Shown one piece after another: positions 20,741 through 33,256 of a stretch of 34,277 nt of DNA. Both the position numbers and the translations under genes were made by a program. The notes under the pieces are model-generated. The model did no database searches. It was not told the origin of the DNA and worked only from the letters and a program-made list of their open reading frames with translations. The first letter of the stretch is position 1. The number at the start of each line of letters is the position of its first letter. The stretch comes from a virus, in IMG/VR virus record IMGVR_UViG_3300011116_001091, positions 1 through 34,277 of that record. One strand, written 5' to 3'.

Positions 20741-20914
20741 TTATTTACTTCGGATGTAATCTACTAACTTAATACACTCGTCCGCTTTACTGTTTATCTT
20801 CGCCATGTCGAGATTTCCCGACTTAGCATACGGTAAAGATATAGAAAGTATCTCTTCGAGATTTTTTCTAATCGAATCCTCAACAGTTTCGTTCACTTGA
20901 ATAGAGTCGCTCAT
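20741..20914 (-). CDS. 57-residue helical protein, unknown function
   Basis: Opens MSDSIQVNETVEDSIRKNLE and continues as an amphipathic helix ending CIKLVDYIRSK. An in-frame ATG at 20941 exists, but the ATG at 20914 follows a perfect promoter-like motif by about eight bases and is preferred. The first 35 bases overlap the 3' end of the GT8-like gene. No domain is recognisable. It may be an independent late gene placed at the end of the glycosylation island. Confidence 0.5.
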   Translation of the reverse strand: MSDSIQVNETVEDSIRKNLEEILSISLPYAKSGNLDMAKINSKADECIKLVDYIRSK

Positions 20915-21581
20915 AATCGTATCTATAAGTATCGAATACATCAGAATATTCTACATTTTTATGTGTAGGGAGCCACGGGCCTCCTTCTGTGAAGTGTAGT
21001 CCTAAAGGTTTTCCATCGTTCGGTTCTTTATACCATCCGACCAACCAATTCCATTGAATCGGTATCGAACCGATGTCATCCTCTTCTAAAAATTTCAATT
21101 GGTGGAGAAATGCGCCTGATTGGCCGTTAATTGTATCTGGAGATAACGTTTTTATTTTTGGATGTTCGTTATTGAAAATCATCAAACTGCTCCAGTTCTT
21201 TTTTGGAAACCTGGTTTGAATTTTTCCACCCATTTTAGTTTCATTTATTGGGTTATAATTGTGTTTACAGCACATCACCGCGAATCGGTCATCATACAAT
21301 TCGACCAAATCATAGATGTCTTTTAGAAAAACAAAATCTCCGTCCACGAATATAGAAACCCCACGGAACTCTGAACAGTGTGGTACGAAAAATCGTGCAA
21401 AAGAAAAATCAGTGGATTCTGTTGGGTCGTCCGCACGTCTATAACTTTCGACGGTATATTTGTTTATGGGTCTAATATTGACTCTATATCGTGCGTGAGT
21501 TTCTATACTAAATTTACAAACCTCATACGCAATCGGGTGTGCTGAGTCTAATCCTATAAATACGTTAAAGTTCTTTCTCAT
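20880..21581 (-). CDS. GT8-like glycosyltransferase
   Basis: A 233-residue GT-A-fold enzyme when started at the ATG at 21581 (MRKNFNVFIGLDSAHPIAYE); a longer frame begins at 21662 but its extra residues look non-homologous and overlap the radical SAM gene. It contains TDFSFARFFVPH and IFVDGDFVFLKDIYDL, where D80-x-D82 is the metal and nucleotide-sugar binding motif. Later it has HFTEGGPWLPTHK, like the C-terminal ligand region in GT8 and related families. It would transfer a sugar from a nucleotide donor to an unknown acceptor. It follows the radical SAM gene with a 17-base overlap, in the same operon. Confidence 0.72.
   Translation of the reverse strand: MRKNFNVFIGLDSAHPIAYEVCKFSIETHARYRVNIRPINKYTVESYRRADDPTESTDFSFARFFVPHCSEFRGVSIFVDGDFVFLKDIYDLVELYDDRFAVMCCKHNYNPINETKMGGKIQTRFPKKNWSSLMIFNNEHPKIKTLSPDTINGQSGAFLHQLKFLEEDDIGSIPIQWNWLVGWYKEPNDGKPLGLHFTEGGPWLPTHKNVEYSDVFDTYRYDYERLYSSERNC
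20923..20933 (-). promoter_or_regulatory. Late-promoter-like motif inside the GT8 gene
   Basis: The minus strand reads GATACTTATAG, exact consensus, within the 3' end of the GT8-like gene and eight bases before the ATG at 20914. Its presence inside a coding region supports its being a selected element. Confidence 0.55.
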
Positions 21582-22422
21582 AAAATAGATCTGCCAAATT
21601 TTTTCCCACCTTCTCACCGTGAATGTTGCAGACGTTACATGGAGACAATATCCTTTTTCCAAGCATCAAAGTATCTCTATATGAACCGAGTTTCTCTGAG
21701 TTCCATATTTCAGATAAAGTGTGAGTGTTTATGTTCAATTCGCTTCTACTCTTTCTCCCCCAATCTTCACAACATACGAGAACGTCACCATTCCAATCTA
21801 TCACGAGCTTATAGAACGGCAAATAACATTTATTGTATTTGAATTCGGATATTTTGTCAGAATTTACTGACACGAATCCTGCACGGTTAGTGAATCCGAC
21901 GGGATTTTTATCCCCATAAGAGATTCTCAACGTATAGTCATCATCAGCATACCCACGGAACAGATTTTTGAACTTTTCCAAAGATTCCTCGCCATCATAA
22001 ACGCTTACTATTATGTGATTTATGCCAGCGGAGTAGATCTGTTCTATCAGATTCGGTGTGAGCCTATCTCCGTTGGTGTTGATTTCGTGAACCGACAAAT
22101 CCGGATTAGCTTGTGACACAAACCCTACGTGTTCCAAGAAATTTTCTGTAAGCAACGGTTCTCCGTTCCCAGACCAGCCGAGTCGGCCACTGTATCCAAA
22201 TTCGGTAAGTCTCTTTGACAACGAACTAACTGTTTCAATAGATATGTGTAAATTTTGATTGGGATACTTCTTAGCATCTGAACGTGGACAAAACCCGCAC
22301 GTTCTATTACACAGCTCAGTTGGGTTCACCGTTATGCTCTGCAAACATCCATTGACCTCATCGGTATGTTTTATCTGAGAGTTCCTCAAAACAACTACAT
22401 CGGATTTTGATTTTGCTATCAT
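21565..22422 (-). CDS. Radical SAM enzyme with SPASM/twitch domain
   Basis: A 285-residue protein from the ATG at 22422, which overlaps the upstream stop as ATGA; an earlier ATG at 22536 lies wholly inside that gene and is rejected. The radical SAM cluster motif is C38-NRT-C42-GF-C45, followed by the GGE-like SGNGEPLL (residues 84-91) that contacts SAM. The C-terminus has cysteines at 199, 217, 218, 262 and 265 (VLVCCEDWG, SPCNVCNIHG), the pattern of a SPASM or twitch auxiliary Fe-S domain. Such enzymes modify peptides, proteins or sugars by radical chemistry. The neighbours are glycosyltransferases. The substrate is not visible. Confidence 0.85.
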   Translation of the reverse strand: MIAKSKSDVVVLRNSQIKHTDEVNGCLQSITVNPTELCNRTCGFCPRSDAKKYPNQNLHISIETVSSLSKRLTEFGYSGRLGWSGNGEPLLTENFLEHVGFVSQANPDLSVHEINTNGDRLTPNLIEQIYSAGINHIIVSVYDGEESLEKFKNLFRGYADDDYTLRISYGDKNPVGFTNRAGFVSVNSDKISEFKYNKCYLPFYKLVIDWNGDVLVCCEDWGRKSRSELNINTHTLSEIWNSEKLGSYRDTLMLGKRILSPCNVCNIHGEKVGKNLADLFYEKEL

Positions 22423-23303
22423 TGGGTCAGAAAGTTGAATTTTTTCTGTAAAACTACGAACATATCGAAGTAGTTGCTCATAAAAATGTCTTTGTCGAAA
22501 ATATGTTTGGTGTATCTGATTGAATTGAAAAAACACGTTTCGCTTGGAATCCCCTTGTATTTTTCCCGTATCTCTCCGTAATACTTGCTGTGTAAAAAGT
22601 CGTTAGTCACAAAGTTGGTCTTAGAACAGAGCCAGATGTCATCCAATACGCTTTTCATATCACCCTTCTCCCTGTGATATAGCGGGCGATAGTGATTCCT
22701 GACCGGTCTTTCTGTGGAATATTTGTTGGAAAAGAAATCGACCATCTGTTTACATCCTCCTACGAAAACAAGAGACTGTGGATTGAACTCTTTTATATAT
22801 TTTTCGACAACAAAATCTGTTATTTCTATATCTACATCAACGTTCAATAGACTCTTATTCTTGACGTGAAACGTGGTCAGTTTTTCAGAAACGTTCGGCT
22901 GAGCGCCGATGAGAATTTTCAATTCTATACTATCTGTCTGGATGGGATGAACTTTCGGGAACCATTCGTAAAAAAGTAAAGTGTCGCCCGACAGTGCTTC
23001 TGGAACAACTCTTGTCAATGTCCCCTTCCGTCCGGTCTTAGATAAAAATCTCGAAAGGATGAATGCCTCAAATTTGTTGGAGGTATCGTTCTTTAATGCA
23101 CGGAACATTTCTACCGGTATGCCGCTGAAAAAATCAGAATATATTCTCAACTCTATATCTGAGTTTATAGACAGTGGAATGAGAGCATCGTTGTAAACCG
23201 TTAAATCGGCTCCAAGTTTCTTTGCCACAACATAACTTTTTAACAACGTCATAAGATTGGTGGTGACACCAAAATAATCCTGTGATATGTTATGTAAGGT
23301 CAT
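22419..23303 (-). CDS. Possible fucosyltransferase-like glycosyltransferase
   Basis: A 294-residue protein. The opening resembles GT-B glycosyltransferases (DYFGVTTNLMTLLKSYVVAK, then KLGADLTVYNDALI). The C-terminal part FNPQSLVFVGGCKQMVDFFS followed by DDIWLCSKTNFVTNDF looks like the donor-binding half of GT11/GT23/NodZ-type fucosyltransferases, where a displayed sugar-nucleotide loop precedes a conserved D-x-x-x-x-x-x-C/S-x-x segment. The match is by pattern only, without a clear catalytic Arg. It is the first gene of a three-gene minus-strand operon with the radical SAM and GT8-like genes. The divergent plus-strand gene starts 17 bases away. Confidence 0.5.
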   Translation of the reverse strand: MTLHNISQDYFGVTTNLMTLLKSYVVAKKLGADLTVYNDALIPLSINSDIELRIYSDFFSGIPVEMFRALKNDTSNKFEAFILSRFLSKTGRKGTLTRVVPEALSGDTLLFYEWFPKVHPIQTDSIELKILIGAQPNVSEKLTTFHVKNKSLLNVDVDIEITDFVVEKYIKEFNPQSLVFVGGCKQMVDFFSNKYSTERPVRNHYRPLYHREKGDMKSVLDDIWLCSKTNFVTNDFLHSKYYGEIREKYKGIPSETCFFNSIRYTKHIFDKDIFMSNYFDMFVVLQKKFNFLTQ

Positions 23304-23320
23304 AGATATACCATATTAAC
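23304..23320. promoter_or_regulatory. 17-base divergent intergenic region
   Basis: Only 17 bases separate the ATG of the minus-strand operon (23303) from the GTG of the plus-strand pair (23321). The minus strand holds TAATAT nine bases before the ATG. On the plus strand AGATATACC precedes the GTG. Any -35 element would lie in the opposite coding region, and both transcripts would have leaders of only a few bases. Confidence 0.4.
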
Positions 23321-23839
23321 GTGTTTCACATAAAAGACAACATTTATCTGTCAGACAAAGATTTTTTATTGGATGAACGAAACCAATCTAATTTAATACA
23401 AAGTGACATAAAGAGGATACTAATATGCACCGAGTATATTGACGGTGAGATAATAAAGAACGAGTCATTGTGCCGTTTCTTATCGGCTTCAAGAATTTCT
23501 ATTGATTGGGTATTTGACACACAGAGGCTCATTCACGAAACAAGATTTAAGATGAAGGGAACGGAGGAATTCAATAAAATACGTAATGCACTTCGATGTA
23601 ATTCTATCAAAACCACCAGGATTTTCAAAGATTTGGCGGATTTTAACGGAAATATTCTGTTAGTGTGCAACAAGATGAATAAAATGTCTCCTGTATTCTG
23701 TCTATTGATTGAAAACTTAAAAACGGAGAGATCTTCCAATTACATACTGGACTCTTTACCAGAGAGTTCTAAGGACGAAACCTCAAAAATCAGAACCACT
23801 CGGATTTTGGAATGTTATAATATGTTGAAATCGGTATGA
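23321..23839 (+). CDS. Degenerate dual-specificity phosphatase (pseudophosphatase)
   Basis: A 172-residue protein read from a GTG start. The N-terminus HIKDNIYLSD, later IKRILICTEY, follows the dual-specificity phosphatase pattern I-x-x-N-I-Y-L-G-D...I-x-x-I-L-N. The active-site loop is NILLVCNKMNKMSPVFCLLI: the nucleophile-position Cys is C116, but the CX5R arginine is M122, while S123 is kept and the usual His before Cys is Val. Loss of the phosphate-binding Arg predicts no phosphatase activity. It could be a binding scaffold or a decoy. It is one of only two well-supported plus-strand genes and is followed 20 bases later by the oxygenase. Confidence 0.5.
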   Translation: MFHIKDNIYLSDKDFLLDERNQSNLIQSDIKRILICTEYIDGEIIKNESLCRFLSASRISIDWVFDTQRLIHETRFKMKGTEEFNKIRNALRCNSIKTTRIFKDLADFNGNILLVCNKMNKMSPVFCLLIENLKTERSSNYILDSLPESSKDETSKIRTTRILECYNMLKSV

Positions 23840-23859
23840 TTCCATGACATATTTGAACC

Positions 23860-24459
23860 ATGAGGTTTAGGTCTATAAAATTGTGGAAGGATCCGTTCCA
23901 ACACTACACGTTTTCTCGGTTTTTTTCTCCCGTAGAGCTGGCAGACTACAAGTTCGTGGACCCTCACGGAGAAAACGGAAACCAACTCAACCAGACCAGA
24001 ACCAGCAGTAAACGAAGAATCTTTATTGATGACGAATTGTGTGAAAAACACAAAATTTACTCAAAACTTCGAGCCTTTTTCTCGTCGGAAGACACCCTCC
24101 GTCTGTTTGAATCATATATCGGAGCGCGTGCTCCAGAGTATCTCCGTATGGAAATCATAAAAGATGTTGGAGAGTCTTGGTTAGAACCTCACTGTGACAT
24201 AAAAGAGAAATACCTGAGTCTGTTAATATTCATTAACGATGTTGGCGAGGATGAAAACTTAGGAACCGACCTATATTCTTCCGAGTTAGTGGTCAAGAAG
24301 ACGGTTCCATTCGTGGATAACACCGGATACTTTTTTTATCCTGGAGATAACACATGGCACGGTCTGGAACGGAGAAAAATTAAGACGCACAGAAAGATTC
24401 TTATGGTGAATTATGTGACTTTTAAGACCGAAATTCAACTTCCTCTAAGAGTTCCATGA
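23860..24459 (+). CDS. 2OG-Fe(II) dioxygenase
   Basis: A 199-residue enzyme with the double-stranded beta-helix iron triad. H111-x-D113 lies in LEPHCDIKEKYLSLLIFIND, H167 in FYPGDNTWHGLERR, and R178 in THRKILMVNYV, which would bind 2-oxoglutarate. These proteins hydroxylate proteins, sugars or small molecules. The arrangement resembles short P4H-like oxygenases common in marine phages. The final 25 bases overlap, tail to tail, the end of the minus-strand glycosyltransferase-like gene. It is probably co-transcribed with the pseudophosphatase gene. The target is unknown. Confidence 0.78.
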   Translation: MRFRSIKLWKDPFQHYTFSRFFSPVELADYKFVDPHGENGNQLNQTRTSSKRRIFIDDELCEKHKIYSKLRAFFSSEDTLRLFESYIGARAPEYLRMEIIKDVGESWLEPHCDIKEKYLSLLIFINDVGEDENLGTDLYSSELVVKKTVPFVDNTGYFFYPGDNTWHGLERRKIKTHRKILMVNYVTFKTEIQLPLRVP

Positions 24460-25337
24460 GACTTAAAAAACTGGACCAACACGTCAAACTTTTCTGCCTT
24501 TCCGGCTCTAAATAACGTGTATCCAGGACGTATTCCGTCTAAACAAAACTCTCGTACCAACAGTTCTAACGGAACAAACTCGGTGTTCACACAGTTCTGT
24601 AAATCAACCATCACTGACAAAGAATTTCCTCTCGACAAACTCCCACCCTCTCGTAAAGACACCTTAGATTCCACTCCGACTTCTTGAAATGGAACACCAA
24701 AATGGGAACAAACGGTGTATTTCATTTCATTGTTTCCAGAGACGAAAAATGGAGTTTTTCCTGGGTTTACACTCAAAAATTTTGTAATTGCGTTTATCCA
24801 ATATCTCCTTTCCATATCAAACTGTTCCGGTGTACTTGTTTTTAGATTGAACGATACGACGTCTAATGTAGGGGAACGATATTTGTATTCATCTGTTATT
24901 ATTGGGTCAAACCTAAACGGTTCTATTATCTGTGAGAGGGATTTTTCGTAACCAACAGCACCATCATTGTAGTCGAGAAGGATTGTCTGGTTTTCCTTCA
25001 ACGATACATTTGAAATGTTTCCGAACCGATAAACAAGTTCCCCTTTTATAGAAAACGGATACCACTTCTGAATGAATTCCTTGTATAAATCGGTGTAACT
25101 CTCACCTGCATCCAATCTCGCGCGTTCATTGAAAATGTGTTTTTGAGAACAGTTGTAATCGGGGAAAGAAACTATGTCTAAGTCAATGTCATCAAACCTC
25201 AGAATTAAGTTTTTCTCTGTTTCTAAACATGGAAAAATCAAATTAATAGAGTTCTTCTTACAGAAATCATAAGTTATGATGAACTTTAGAAGGTTTCCAG
25301 AAAGGCCGGTGTTTTTGACCGAGAAAAGTTGGTTCAT
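24435..25337 (-). CDS. Putative glycosyltransferase-like protein, weakly assigned
   Basis: A 300-residue protein. Features such as SVKNTGLSGNLLKFIITYDF at the start and KTPFFVSGNNEMKYTVCSHF with FGVPFQEVG later suggest a two-domain Rossmann-like GT-B or fucosyltransferase-type fold, by analogy with the 294-residue protein nearby. No DxD or other catalytic motif is clear. It starts within the stop of the GT29-like gene (ATGA overlap), making a three-gene operon of unknown 234-residue protein, GT29-like enzyme and this one. Its 3' end overlaps the convergent oxygenase gene. The glycosyltransferase label is mostly context. Confidence 0.4.
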   Translation of the reverse strand: MNQLFSVKNTGLSGNLLKFIITYDFCKKNSINLIFPCLETEKNLILRFDDIDLDIVSFPDYNCSQKHIFNERARLDAGESYTDLYKEFIQKWYPFSIKGELVYRFGNISNVSLKENQTILLDYNDGAVGYEKSLSQIIEPFRFDPIITDEYKYRSPTLDVVSFNLKTSTPEQFDMERRYWINAITKFLSVNPGKTPFFVSGNNEMKYTVCSHFGVPFQEVGVESKVSLREGGSLSRGNSLSVMVDLQNCVNTEFVPLELLVREFCLDGIRPGYTLFRAGKAEKFDVLVQFFKSHGTLRGS

Positions 25338-25933
25338 AGAGCTCTGAGTTTCCCCTTTTTTAAAAGAATCGAATGTAAAGCACGTTCGTATGAATATGGA
25401 TGACGATTCTTGATGTCTCTGTTATGACTTTGTTTCCAATACCAACCGGTTTTAAAAAAGTCGAACCCATACGTATAAATCTCAGATTCTTTGAAGTGCT
25501 TCATAACAAGTCTTATTGCTCTATAACCAAGACTCGGATTTATCAACGACAGATCTATGCTCAACGGACCCATCTCTTTATAAGACTCTATTATATCCAA
25601 GGCATCTTGACGGTTCATAAAGTGAACGAGATTTTCCTTTTGTCTGTCATCCAATAAGGATAATATCTCTCCCTTCACGGTTTCTATTTTGTTATCATCA
25701 TAGTATTCATTGAAAACTGGAAAAGTAACAAACGTTTTTGTTTTTCGGAGCCTCTCGGTGTTAAGCTTCCAATGAGCCGTTATACAGTAGTCTGTTTTTG
25801 TGCCAACGTTTTTTTCAAATCCACCCAGTTCATATGTTCCAAGTCTAACAACGGTGTCAAACGCATCAATTTGGTCCCCGAGAGTTCTATCTAATACTTC
25901 ACAACCGTTTCCTATTAATACAAGCTTTCTCAT
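25334..25933 (-). CDS. GT29 sialyltransferase-like enzyme
   Basis: A 199-residue protein with the sialylmotifs of family GT29. The L-motif-like start is LVLIGNGCEVLDRTLGDQID followed by AFDTVVRLG. The S-motif-like segment is NPSLGYRAIRLVMKHF, followed by EIYTYGFDFF. The final H178-x4-E183 (HPYSYERA) fits the VS motif. The length is short for a eukaryotic enzyme but normal for bacterial and phage members. It would transfer a sialic acid or related nonulosonate from a CMP-linked donor. No synthesis or activation genes are in the window, so a host donor is needed. Both flanking genes overlap it by ATGA. Confidence 0.75.
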   Translation of the reverse strand: MRKLVLIGNGCEVLDRTLGDQIDAFDTVVRLGTYELGGFEKNVGTKTDYCITAHWKLNTERLRKTKTFVTFPVFNEYYDDNKIETVKGEILSLLDDRQKENLVHFMNRQDALDIIESYKEMGPLSIDLSLINPSLGYRAIRLVMKHFKESEIYTYGFDFFKTGWYWKQSHNRDIKNRHPYSYERALHSILLKKGKLRAL

Positions 25934-29385: not shown

Positions 29386-30120
29386 TCAGTCCTTTTTGGA
29401 TTCTTTTTTGATCTTTTTGATGATAAACTTCACCAATTTTGACCTAACAATATCGTCGTCATCAAAAGTAAATGTATAAATTCCATTTTCTTTGCTTTCT
29501 CCGTCGTTGAAGGTATCAAACATTTTCTTGAATCCGCTTTTAAGTCCTATATCAGTTTGATCGGTATCTCCTAAAACAAATATCTTGCTAAATTCTCCGA
29601 CACGGGTAATAAGTGTTAACAATTCCTTGGAGGTCATGTTCTGTGCTTCGTCGGCTATAATAGATTTAGCATTCCAGTTAAGTCCCCTTAGAAATCCAAC
29701 AGGCACGGATTCAACCCTACCATCCAACTGTAAAGATCGAACTTCGCTTGGTGGCAACAATTCGTCTAATTTATCTATAAGCGGCTGTAGATAAGGAGCC
29801 ATCTTCTCATTACATTCTCCTGGAAGAAATCCCAGTTTACTATCACTGCTTTCCACCGCGCTTCGAATATACATTAAATCGCTCACTCTCTTATCGTTCA
29901 TAAGCTTAAGCGAAGCTAACACGGATAAATATGTCTTGGATGTTCCCGCTGGGCCAGACACAAAAATCATCTTTACATCTCTATTTAAAGCAAGTGATAT
30001 AAATTCCTTCTGTTTCTCTGTAAGTGGTTGTTTCTCGAAGATGGTCAGTCCGGTTTTTATTTTAGATTTTTGAGGTATAACTGGGCTTGTATCTGGCTTC
30101 CGACGATTTTTATTTTTCAT
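29386..30120 (-). CDS. phoH: PhoH-like ATPase
   Basis: A 244-residue P-loop protein. Walker A is G56-PAGTSKT63 (MIFVSGPAGTSKTYLSVLAS) and Walker B is IIADEAQ with D157-E158. The sensor-like GDTDQ is at 184-188. The family is common in marine T4-like phages and has been linked to RNA metabolism and phosphate stress, though its phage role is unsettled. The start follows a Lys/Arg-rich opening (MKNKNRRKPD) that overlaps the end of the 103-residue gene by 11 bases, pointing to joint transcription. Confidence 0.88.
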   Translation of the reverse strand: MKNKNRRKPDTSPVIPQKSKIKTGLTIFEKQPLTEKQKEFISLALNRDVKMIFVSGPAGTSKTYLSVLASLKLMNDKRVSDLMYIRSAVESSDSKLGFLPGECNEKMAPYLQPLIDKLDELLPPSEVRSLQLDGRVESVPVGFLRGLNWNAKSIIADEAQNMTSKELLTLITRVGEFSKIFVLGDTDQTDIGLKSGFKKMFDTFNDGESKENGIYTFTFDDDDIVRSKLVKFIIKKIKKESKKD

Positions 30121-31501: not shown

Positions 31502-31671
31502 ATTGAAAGTATTTTGACCACGGGAACGTCTCGTCCCATCCAAGAGCTTACACATTCAAGGTAGCAGCCTATCACGGTAATTCGGTTAAACTTAATAACT
31601 TACTGTTTCGCGTGAGTATTCGTATATGTAATATGACGAATATATAGTAGTTCTTCACAGGTAACTTTCAG
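31502..31671. other. Noncoding stretch downstream of tmRNA
   Basis: About 170 bases with no supported gene. A hairpin-forming sequence (TATTCGT ... ACGAATA, 31617-31642) lies just beyond the tmRNA 3' end, but no U-run follows it in the tmRNA direction. I see no promoter motif of the phage type. Confidence 0.35.
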
Positions 31672-32054
31672 GGTGGAGCCAGCGGGAGTCGAACCCGCGT
31701 GGACAACATTTACTCAACCCAAGACTACACGTTTATGGTTTTTATTTTTTCGTGAAGGTGATACTAAAACCCGAAAGTTCCTCTCCCTTAGATTTGAGTT
31801 ACTTCGACAAACCAACCAAATCAAATGGTTTATCTAGCTCGATAAATAACGTAACAGGAAAATATCGTGCGTCAATTCATGTTACGGGCAGCCTAATTAG
31901 GCTACGGCGTATTCGGCCTCGACACCTTCTGGTGTGAAGTCGTATGCGATTACGTTTTTAGCGTTTATCTTTTGATAGAATTTTAAAGAAGCCAACTATC
32001 ATCTTCTACGTGCCTTAGATTTCGTTTACATTGCCTCGAAACCAGTATGGCCCC
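31672..32054 (-). ncRNA. ssrA: tmRNA (transfer-messenger RNA), one-piece
   Basis: A complete ~383-base tmRNA, read on the minus strand. The acceptor stem is GGGGCCA (32054-32048) pairing with TGGCTCC (31681-31675) with one G-U pair. The T-arm GCGGG-TTCGACT-CCCGC lies at 31698-31682, and CTGGTTTCGAGG follows the 5' stem as in other tmRNAs. The 3' end is A-CC followed by C, so the final A of CCA is not encoded. The resume codon is GCT at 31962, after GATAAAC. The open frame runs 21 codons, beginning AKNVIAYDFT and ending GVEAEYAVA, to TAA at 31897. tmRNA rescues stalled ribosomes and tags the product for proteolysis. No smpB gene is in the window, so host SmpB is presumably used. Confidence 0.93.
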
Positions 32055-32087
32055 AATGGTATTCAAAGAACTAACCAACTCTAACAT

Positions 32088-32100
32088 CAATAAATAGAAA
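32088..32100 (-). promoter_or_regulatory. Possible promoter element upstream of tmRNA
   Basis: The minus strand reads TTTCTATTTATTG, between the stop of the 384-residue gene and the tmRNA 5' end (32054). The core TATTTATT matches motif variants at 5796 and 30435, but the distance to the RNA (33 bases) is larger than elsewhere, so the tmRNA could also be processed from a read-through transcript. Confidence 0.3.
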
Positions 32101-32101
32101 G

Positions 32102-33256
32102 TCAATTAGATTTTCCTAAACGAATATCCCTATCATGGGGTTTCTCTCCCAACGGAGGGTCGGTCGGACAGCTTGGCATATGGTGGACCAATCCGCTCAT
32201 GGGCATTCTATAACGAGTTTCGCTTGGAAGTATTTCACGTTTGCATCTAAAACACATATCTTTATTAGCCTCTCCCTCAAACTCTTTTAACAAATCATTT
32301 TTTGTGGAATTTGTCGGGAGGGTGTGTCCACATGAACTACAAGACTTTGTTCCCTCAATATCATTATGAATCGAGGTTTCTCCATAAGTTCCTTTTTTAC
32401 ACCTTACACATTTCTTACCAGTTATATTAATCGTCTTTTCTGGTTTTACTTCTGGCTTAGGCATTGTGAATGATTGCATCTCATTCACGAGATCCCAAAG
32501 ATTCTTCCCCATCACATCATCATAAACCGCAGAATCAATTTTATCCCATTGTTCATCCGTTGGTGCCGGCGTGACATTTTCGATTTCGACATCAACTGAC
32601 GTCTCATCAACTTCTGAATGAAATTCTCCGTGCGGTTGTGGTGTTCCGACTACGTTACCAGATACGGTTGCTTCATAGTCAAAATCCGAACCGTCTACAT
32701 TAACCGTGCCTTTAACGAGTTTTGAAAAGTGTTCCACATCTTCTTTTATCTGGCCCGCCGACAACTTCTGATTCAACTCAGCAGCAACCGCTTTTGCCCG
32801 ACCCTCATCATAATACTCCATACCAATCGGAGTCTCTTCATATTCGTCACCCATAGGGTCAGATGTCACTTTTACAATCTGATAAACAATCTCACGTTCG
32901 GCATCTGGGTCTCGACTTCCTCTTGATAGGTCTTCTCGGTTTACAAAGAAATGAGTTTTCTTACCCGAACTGACTGATTCGTTTACTACTGCGCCATCAC
33001 TTGGGCGATCATCCAAGTTATACATCTTTCTAAAATAATTGTATCCGTGGACAACATCTCCGGAAAATGCATAAACACCTATATCGCGTTTTCCACTTGG
33101 GTATCTTGCCCACACGTATTCGTATTTCTTTCCCCCCATCATAAACGGTACTTCACCATTCATTTGACGGAGATAAGTCACATACGGCTCATCATACTCG
33201 CTCTTGTTTTCGTTCAAACATTGACGGATAAGTTTTTTCAAAATTCCTTTTTTCAT
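32102..33256 (-). CDS. Protein with two C-terminal zinc-ribbon-like segments, unknown function
   Basis: A 384-residue acidic protein. The N-terminal amphipathic helix MKKGILKKLIRQCLNENK is of a type often seen in phage head or packaging proteins. The middle is unassigned. The C-terminal ~110 residues carry two Cys clusters: KKCVRCKKGTYGE paired with KSCSSCGHTLP, and DMCFRCKREILPSETRY followed by HHMPSCP, each a plausible zinc site. Nucleic-acid or protein binding is possible; the sequence does not decide. The gene ends about 47 bases before the tmRNA 5' end. No Shine-Dalgarno is seen at the start (ACCACTATG). Confidence 0.6.
   Translation of the reverse strand: MKKGILKKLIRQCLNENKSEYDEPYVTYLRQMNGEVPFMMGGKKYEYVWARYPSGKRDIGVYAFSGDVVHGYNYFRKMYNLDDRPSDGAVVNESVSSGKKTHFFVNREDLSRGSRDPDAEREIVYQIVKVTSDPMGDEYEETPIGMEYYDEGRAKAVAAELNQKLSAGQIKEDVEHFSKLVKGTVNVDGSDFDYEATVSGNVVGTPQPHGEFHSEVDETSVDVEIENVTPAPTDEQWDKIDSAVYDDVMGKNLWDLVNEMQSFTMPKPEVKPEKTINITGKKCVRCKKGTYGETSIHNDIEGTKSCSSCGHTLPTNSTKNDLLKEFEGEANKDMCFRCKREILPSETRYRMPMSGLVHHMPSCPTDPPLGEKPHDRDIRLGKSN

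Follow-up and report, generated by a model that had tools for sequence, protein, structure and literature searches.

The window that we analyzed, a contig of 34,277 bases from a virus record of environmental origin, encodes a genuine, functional-looking phage tmRNA, judging by its sequence. As an RNA, it is of a known type. Its tag belongs to a family of long tags with a conserved core that had gone unremarked and is new here; the family is common to many related phages. Our best explanation, to which we assign a probability of roughly 0.8, is that a T4-like phage makes a functional one-piece tmRNA here, which uses the host's SmpB and tags stalled products for the host's Clp-type proteases.

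Phage tmRNAs have been reported in 402 of 18,146 phages (PMC9004378). In the window, ARAGORN identified a single RNA gene, which is a tmRNA with the tag AKNVIAYDFTPEGVEAEYAVA, followed by a stop codon (Table 1). The Rfam model for one-piece tmRNA (RF00023) aligns to it over its full length (32054-31671; 122.4 bits, E = 1.3e-47; the curated cut-off is 47 bits), with the GCU at the consensus resume position. Nothing else in the window scored above the Rfam cut-off. The fold beats 100/100 shuffles (z = -2.9). The segments follow the one-piece order and are not permuted, as the 3' and 5' segments of a two-piece tmRNA would be. As in other tmRNAs of the RF00023 type, there is a tRNA-like domain with a G3-U pair, helix 2, pseudoknots 1 to 4, helix 5 around the stop codon, GCU as the resume codon, and alanine at both ends of the tag. 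What differs is the tag itself, with 21 amino acids, the core NVIAYDF, and the ending AVA.

Table 1. Features of the tmRNA locus in the window.
Feature	Position	Strand	Support or remarks
One-piece tmRNA (ssrA) gene, 383 nt	31672..32054	-	ARAGORN; RF00023, 122.4 bits; covariation
Acceptor stem, 5' side, GGGGCCA, including the G3-U pair	32048..32054	-	Partner at 31675-31681; G-U in 12/13
T arm and acceptor stem (3' side), with the A at 31674 as discriminator	31675..31698	-	Rfam; covariation
Helix 2, 5' side	32012..32035	-	3' side at 31702-31725; both-side changes in 15/20 pairs
Pseudoknot 1	31974..32007	-	AGAAG/CUUCU and GAUAG/CUAUC, paired in all cells
Helix 5 hairpin, with the tag's stop codon in the loop	31888..31905	-	Both-side changes in 3/6 pairs
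Pseudoknot 2	31840..31886	-	Of all helices, conservation is lowest in its second stem (76.9% paired)
Pseudoknot 3	31791..31834	-	Explicit structure and covariation
Pseudoknot 4	31737..31786	-	Explicit structure and covariation
Tag frame, GCT..TAA, AKNVIAYDFTPEGVEAEYAVA and stop	31897..31962	-	ARAGORN; divergence by codon position; 3-nt indels
Tag front, A[KN]NVIAYDF, residues 1-9	31936..31962	-	Constant in 13 distinct relatives except for K/N at residue 2
boxA-like element, GTTCTTTGAATA; start lies 17 nt ahead of the tmRNA	32060..32071	-	Position kept in relatives
Weak sigma-70-like promoter, TTGACT-16-TAGAGT	32078..32105	-	No commoner than in shuffles
phoH, conserved downstream neighbor of the tmRNA	29386..30120	-	PF02562, E = 1.4e-49

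To measure covariation, we aligned 13 distinct RNAs from the window's clade and counted pairing in an explicit structure (the acceptor stem, T arm, helix 2, pseudoknot 1, helix 5, and pseudoknots 2 to 4). In this alignment, 94.7% of cells were paired, and both sides had changed in 46 of 84 pairs. The observed level was reached by 0/500 shuffles, a comparison that is inflated by the relatedness of the RNAs. Slid controls, in which the partner is moved by 1-3 columns, retain that relatedness, and these were 40-47% paired. Changes on both sides were seen in 11 of the 12 helices, including at least one stem of each of the four pseudoknots, as well as helix 5; the changes in the second stem of pseudoknot 1 were confined to one side. 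The T arm was 100% paired, with both-side changes in 4 of its 5 pairs, and the G3-U alanine signal was present in 12 of the 13 RNAs. Together, ARAGORN, Rfam, the shuffles, and the covariation rule out chance or an artefact as the source of the tmRNA call, and the original prediction of a phage-encoded tmRNA at this location is upheld.

At the 3' end of the gene (31671-31674, minus strand), CCA is written as CCC, that is, CC and then C, so it is not fully encoded. This implies that the host's CCA-adding enzyme is needed. Among the relatives, CCA is absent after the discriminator in L002, L012, and L013, where GAGCACAG comes next; L007 and the AEDN-type sister clade encode it in full.

The tag frame runs for 21 sense codons, from GCT (31962-31960) to TAA (31899-31897). 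Across the 13 distinct relatives, divergence within this frame is 0.05, 0.19, and 0.35 at codon positions 1, 2, and 3. Indels within it are of exactly 3 nucleotides, and a one-codon gap separates two tag lengths. The resume position in Rfam and this codon-wise pattern rule out any other tag frame. The 21-codon frame is the one that had been read from the sequence originally, and ARAGORN and the Rfam alignment both agree with it. The tag was also described as long, which it is (21 amino acids, as compared to a commonest length of 10; PMC11915505), and as acidic, which is true but mildly so (one lysine versus one aspartate and three glutamates). The last alanine is constant among the 13 relatives, while residues 12-20 are mostly variable. 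The window's tag ends with Val-Ala and lacks the C-terminal Ala-Ala of the canonical -[LVI]AA degron for ClpX.

A degenerate pattern for the front of the tag identified 17 IMG/VR contigs, in each of which a tmRNA was verified by ARAGORN or Rfam. A search with PhoH only, which made no use of the tag, yielded further loci, and the complete tmRNAs at these loci bear tags of this kind as well. With a second pattern, we obtained 74 stretches, some of which overlap the earlier set. Five matches without a readable tag are RNAs that are cut at the ends of loci, and the pattern matches in L019 and L020 are not tmRNAs. In total, this lineage of uncultured T4-like phages has about 70 distinct tmRNAs and 29 distinct tags. 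The window's tmRNA is not unique to this contig, as L017 has an identical one besides the distinct relatives.

The 29 tags are 19-30 amino acids long: 20 of them have 20 amino acids, six have 21, and there is one each of 19, 23, and 30. The longest tag that we read in the lineage is basic (ATKKSKVISYNFTSKKSSKTFKKSGLALAA; L056, 3212-3620), and the adjoining phoH is 65% identical to the window's. Since tags of about 20 amino acids are general across the phage lineage, this length is not peculiar to the window. All 29 tags contain the core [VI][VI][AS]Y[DN]F and end with alanine; the core was required in extracting these tags, and a fair test of it comes from the loci that were found with PhoH only. 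Of these tags, 21 end with -AA and eight with -VA, so AVA looks like a minor departure from -[LVI]AA, the ending of most of the lineage. In the window's clade, 10 distinct RNAs end with -VA and 3 with -AA.

Collections of annotated phages and plasmids yielded no similar tag, and no isolate has a similar tmRNA. Complete ssrA genes are likewise carried by mycobacteriophages Bxz1 and Wildcat, Bacillus phage G, Streptomyces phages, and huge phages, but these are of another phage group. The tags from Streptomyces phages (ANSNFALAA and ANSKNASAYALAA) are short and are unrelated to the window's tag. The marine phage Melnitz and pelagimyophages resemble our lineage in that an aquatic T4-like myophage encodes a tmRNA with a presumed role in infection; however, that of Melnitz is a permuted two-piece tmRNA of the alphaproteobacterial type, with a glutamine riboswitch (PMC9004378), and the window's is one-piece.

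We counted 115 pairs of tmRNA and phoH, including copies from overlapping loci, and in every one the tmRNA is upstream and shares its strand with phoH. The spacing ranges from 970 to 5,696 bases. This fixed order and strand beside phoH, along with the 70 distinct RNAs and 29 tags, implies long-term retention. There were 34 loci in which the tmRNA seemed to be missing upstream of phoH. Some of these absences are false: an insertion shifts the tmRNA past the flank, and at least seven contigs carry the tmRNA farther off. The tmRNA tree disagrees with the PhoH tree. For instance, the tmRNAs of L057 (4596-4978) and L060 (5745-6127) are nearly identical, beside clearly different phoH genes (identity to the window's PhoH is 83% and 68.5%, respectively), which suggests that the tmRNA locus has been exchanged among these phages.

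A boxA-like element precedes the tmRNA. Among 37 distinct upstream regions, the motif G[TC]TCTTT[GTA] is present at about -17 in 29 and is not found from -130 to -36; the mean expectation from shuffles is 0.21. Fifteen of the motif-bearing regions have unrelated preceding sequences, and some seem to have a tRNA just before. The window's copy alone is unremarkable (1.5 are expected in the window), while its fixed place across relatives is remarkable. The boxA consensus GYTCTTTAANA is gamma-proteobacterial (PMC5725501). Relative to this consensus, GTTCTTTGAATA is off at one specified position and the element from the sister clade (GTTCTTTAAAA) is a full match. Judging by titles and abstracts, no paper in the library that we searched links boxA to ssrA or tmRNA. 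We believe that this putative boxA before a tmRNA is new here.

Larger relatives of the window encode gp23, a T4-type portal, a prohead protease, and terminase, which implies that the lineage is T4-like. The closest gp23 proteins are from Microcystis phage Mel-JY01 (53%), the huge phage LR756508, and Flavobacterium immuto phages; Mel-JY01 and the Flavobacterium phages, which are the closest isolates, are at 52-53%, and the window's baseplate wedge protein leads to the same neighbors. These neighbors are ambiguous as indicators of the host. When we sought the host via neighboring genes, psbA was not found. One relative (L076 1723-3087, from the 103-kb contig G010) has a DUF1552 (HXXSHH) gene; DUF1552 is rare in plasmids (4 records), and we view this gene as a weak hint about the host. 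The window itself has a cluster of apparent genes for sugar-transfer enzymes and a radical-SAM-like protein amid its structural genes (20880-25933; motifs identified by eye). The 484-kb phage LR756508 also has a tmRNA (L024 1501-1947; LR756508.1 92434-92880), whose tag is ambiguous: ARAGORN reports GRRKPLSW, but from the resume region a frame that starts with GVNNADYES extends for about 36 codons.

Some huge phages encode SmpB as well as tmRNA (PMC7162821), but we did not find SmpB (PF01668) in 43 contigs or records from our lineage (24 + 19), which are mostly fragments; controls were positive in 10 of 14 genomes. The simplest reading is that the phage tmRNA would use the host's SmpB, as expected. 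Similarly, SspB was not found in 23 contigs or records, mostly fragments, and we did not recognize a phage adaptor or protease beside the tmRNA. ClpP-like matches were found solely in the isolate Mel-JY01 and in LR756508, and these may be prohead proteases.

Under our best explanation, a host enzyme would charge the tmRNA with alanine, the host's SmpB would bind it, and it would enter ribosomes that stall on broken or degraded mRNAs during infection. The ribosome would switch to the tmRNA's own frame, add the 21-residue tag, and be freed, and the host's Clp-type proteases would destroy the tagged fragment. The final alanine, and the valine or alanine before it, would be retained for this proteolysis step. 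The front of the tag (NVIAYDF or NVISYDF) would be retained for a separate reason: the simplest is that an adaptor or protease of the host recognizes it, or else it is the tag motif of the host. In E. coli, SspB recognizes the front of the tag.

A further reading is about where the tag came from, and it is compatible with this explanation. The tag may be that of the host lineage, captured along with the host's ssrA and kept to supplement the host's tmRNA; we view this as a serious possibility, if somewhat short of even odds. The host may thus have an unusual tag, which the original prediction gave as an alternative. Cyanobacterial and plastid tags (ANNIV.F...) look similar to the phage tags, and one red-algal plastid tag ends with AVA. 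Also, phage tmRNAs often track host lineages (PMC9004378), and there are cellular tags of such length and style. For instance, the tag of Chlamydia trachomatis (AEPKAECEIISFADLEDLRVAA) has 22 amino acids, and in its middle is IIS[F], like VIS[Y] (EIISFAD as compared to NVISYDF in the phages), but it is without YDF and ends with RVAA (PMC12493166); this likeness was judged by eye only. On the other hand, we searched 84,980 cellular genomes for AKN[VI][VI]AY[DE] behind AAAYGC and found two matches, neither of which is a tmRNA. The original prediction had named an identical tag in many cellular bacteria as a finding that would count against it, and none turned up in these genomes with this narrow pattern, which would miss an AACTGC context and AE or AN fronts.

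The original prediction also proposed that the tag might redirect or weaken degradation. In the stronger form of this idea, the tag is a deliberately altered degron, whose long acidic body and AVA ending spare tagged viral fragments or reroute them. The -VA tags are clustered on the PhoH tree, recur (8/29), and need at least three changes, so degron strength may have been under selection; the body of the tag is conserved beyond the needs of a bare C-terminal degron. Also, when the last or next-to-last residue of the E. coli tag is changed, the KM of ClpXP rises, with little effect on Vmax (PMC7652416). But LVA is among the tag variants that are used on fluorescent proteins in E. coli, where it serves as a degron (PMC9382460). 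Given these data from another organism, we would expect AVA to cause some weakening at most, without abolishing the signal, and the AVA-ended tag is probably still an ordinary degradation signal. Furthermore, close relatives toggle between the endings with most of the tag unchanged (-VEVEVAA in L012 and -VEVELAVA in L013), the final alanine is invariant, most of the tags keep -AA, the length is lineage-wide and has the chlamydial precedent, an adaptor or protease of the phage's own was not recognized beside the tmRNA, and SspB was not found in the contigs described above. Redirected or weakened degradation is possible, and the comparison speaks mildly against it; we consider a deliberately altered degron to be unlikely.

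A bolder proposal is that these phages own a tagging channel. An adaptor or protease that is specific to infection would dock on NVISYDF or NVIAYDF, and with its boxA leader the tmRNA would be transcribed in the manner of rRNA, under Nus antitermination. The idea of a docking motif comes from the front of the tag being kept while its tail and the RNA diverge. We think that this is quite improbable. If true, ribosome rescue would be boosted, and tagged products would be sorted apart from those of the host.

Finally, the RNA is very unlikely to be a decoy that titrates SmpB or blocks the host's trans-translation: mycobacteriophage DS6A sets a precedent with an RNA that has the tRNA-like domain only (PMC4131195, PMC11915505), and we did not find a phage SmpB, but a decoy would have no need of the complete mRNA-like domain, the four pseudoknots, or the selected coding frame that the window's RNA retains.

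That phages have tmRNAs is established, and what they do is the larger question. The lineage described here has about 70 distinct versions of the RNA and 29 tags, a fixed place by phoH, natural switches between -VA and -AA, an unusually conserved tag front, and a boxA-like leader. It allows us to ask if degradation has shaped the tags of phages, and for what purpose a phage would have a ribosome-rescue RNA of its own.
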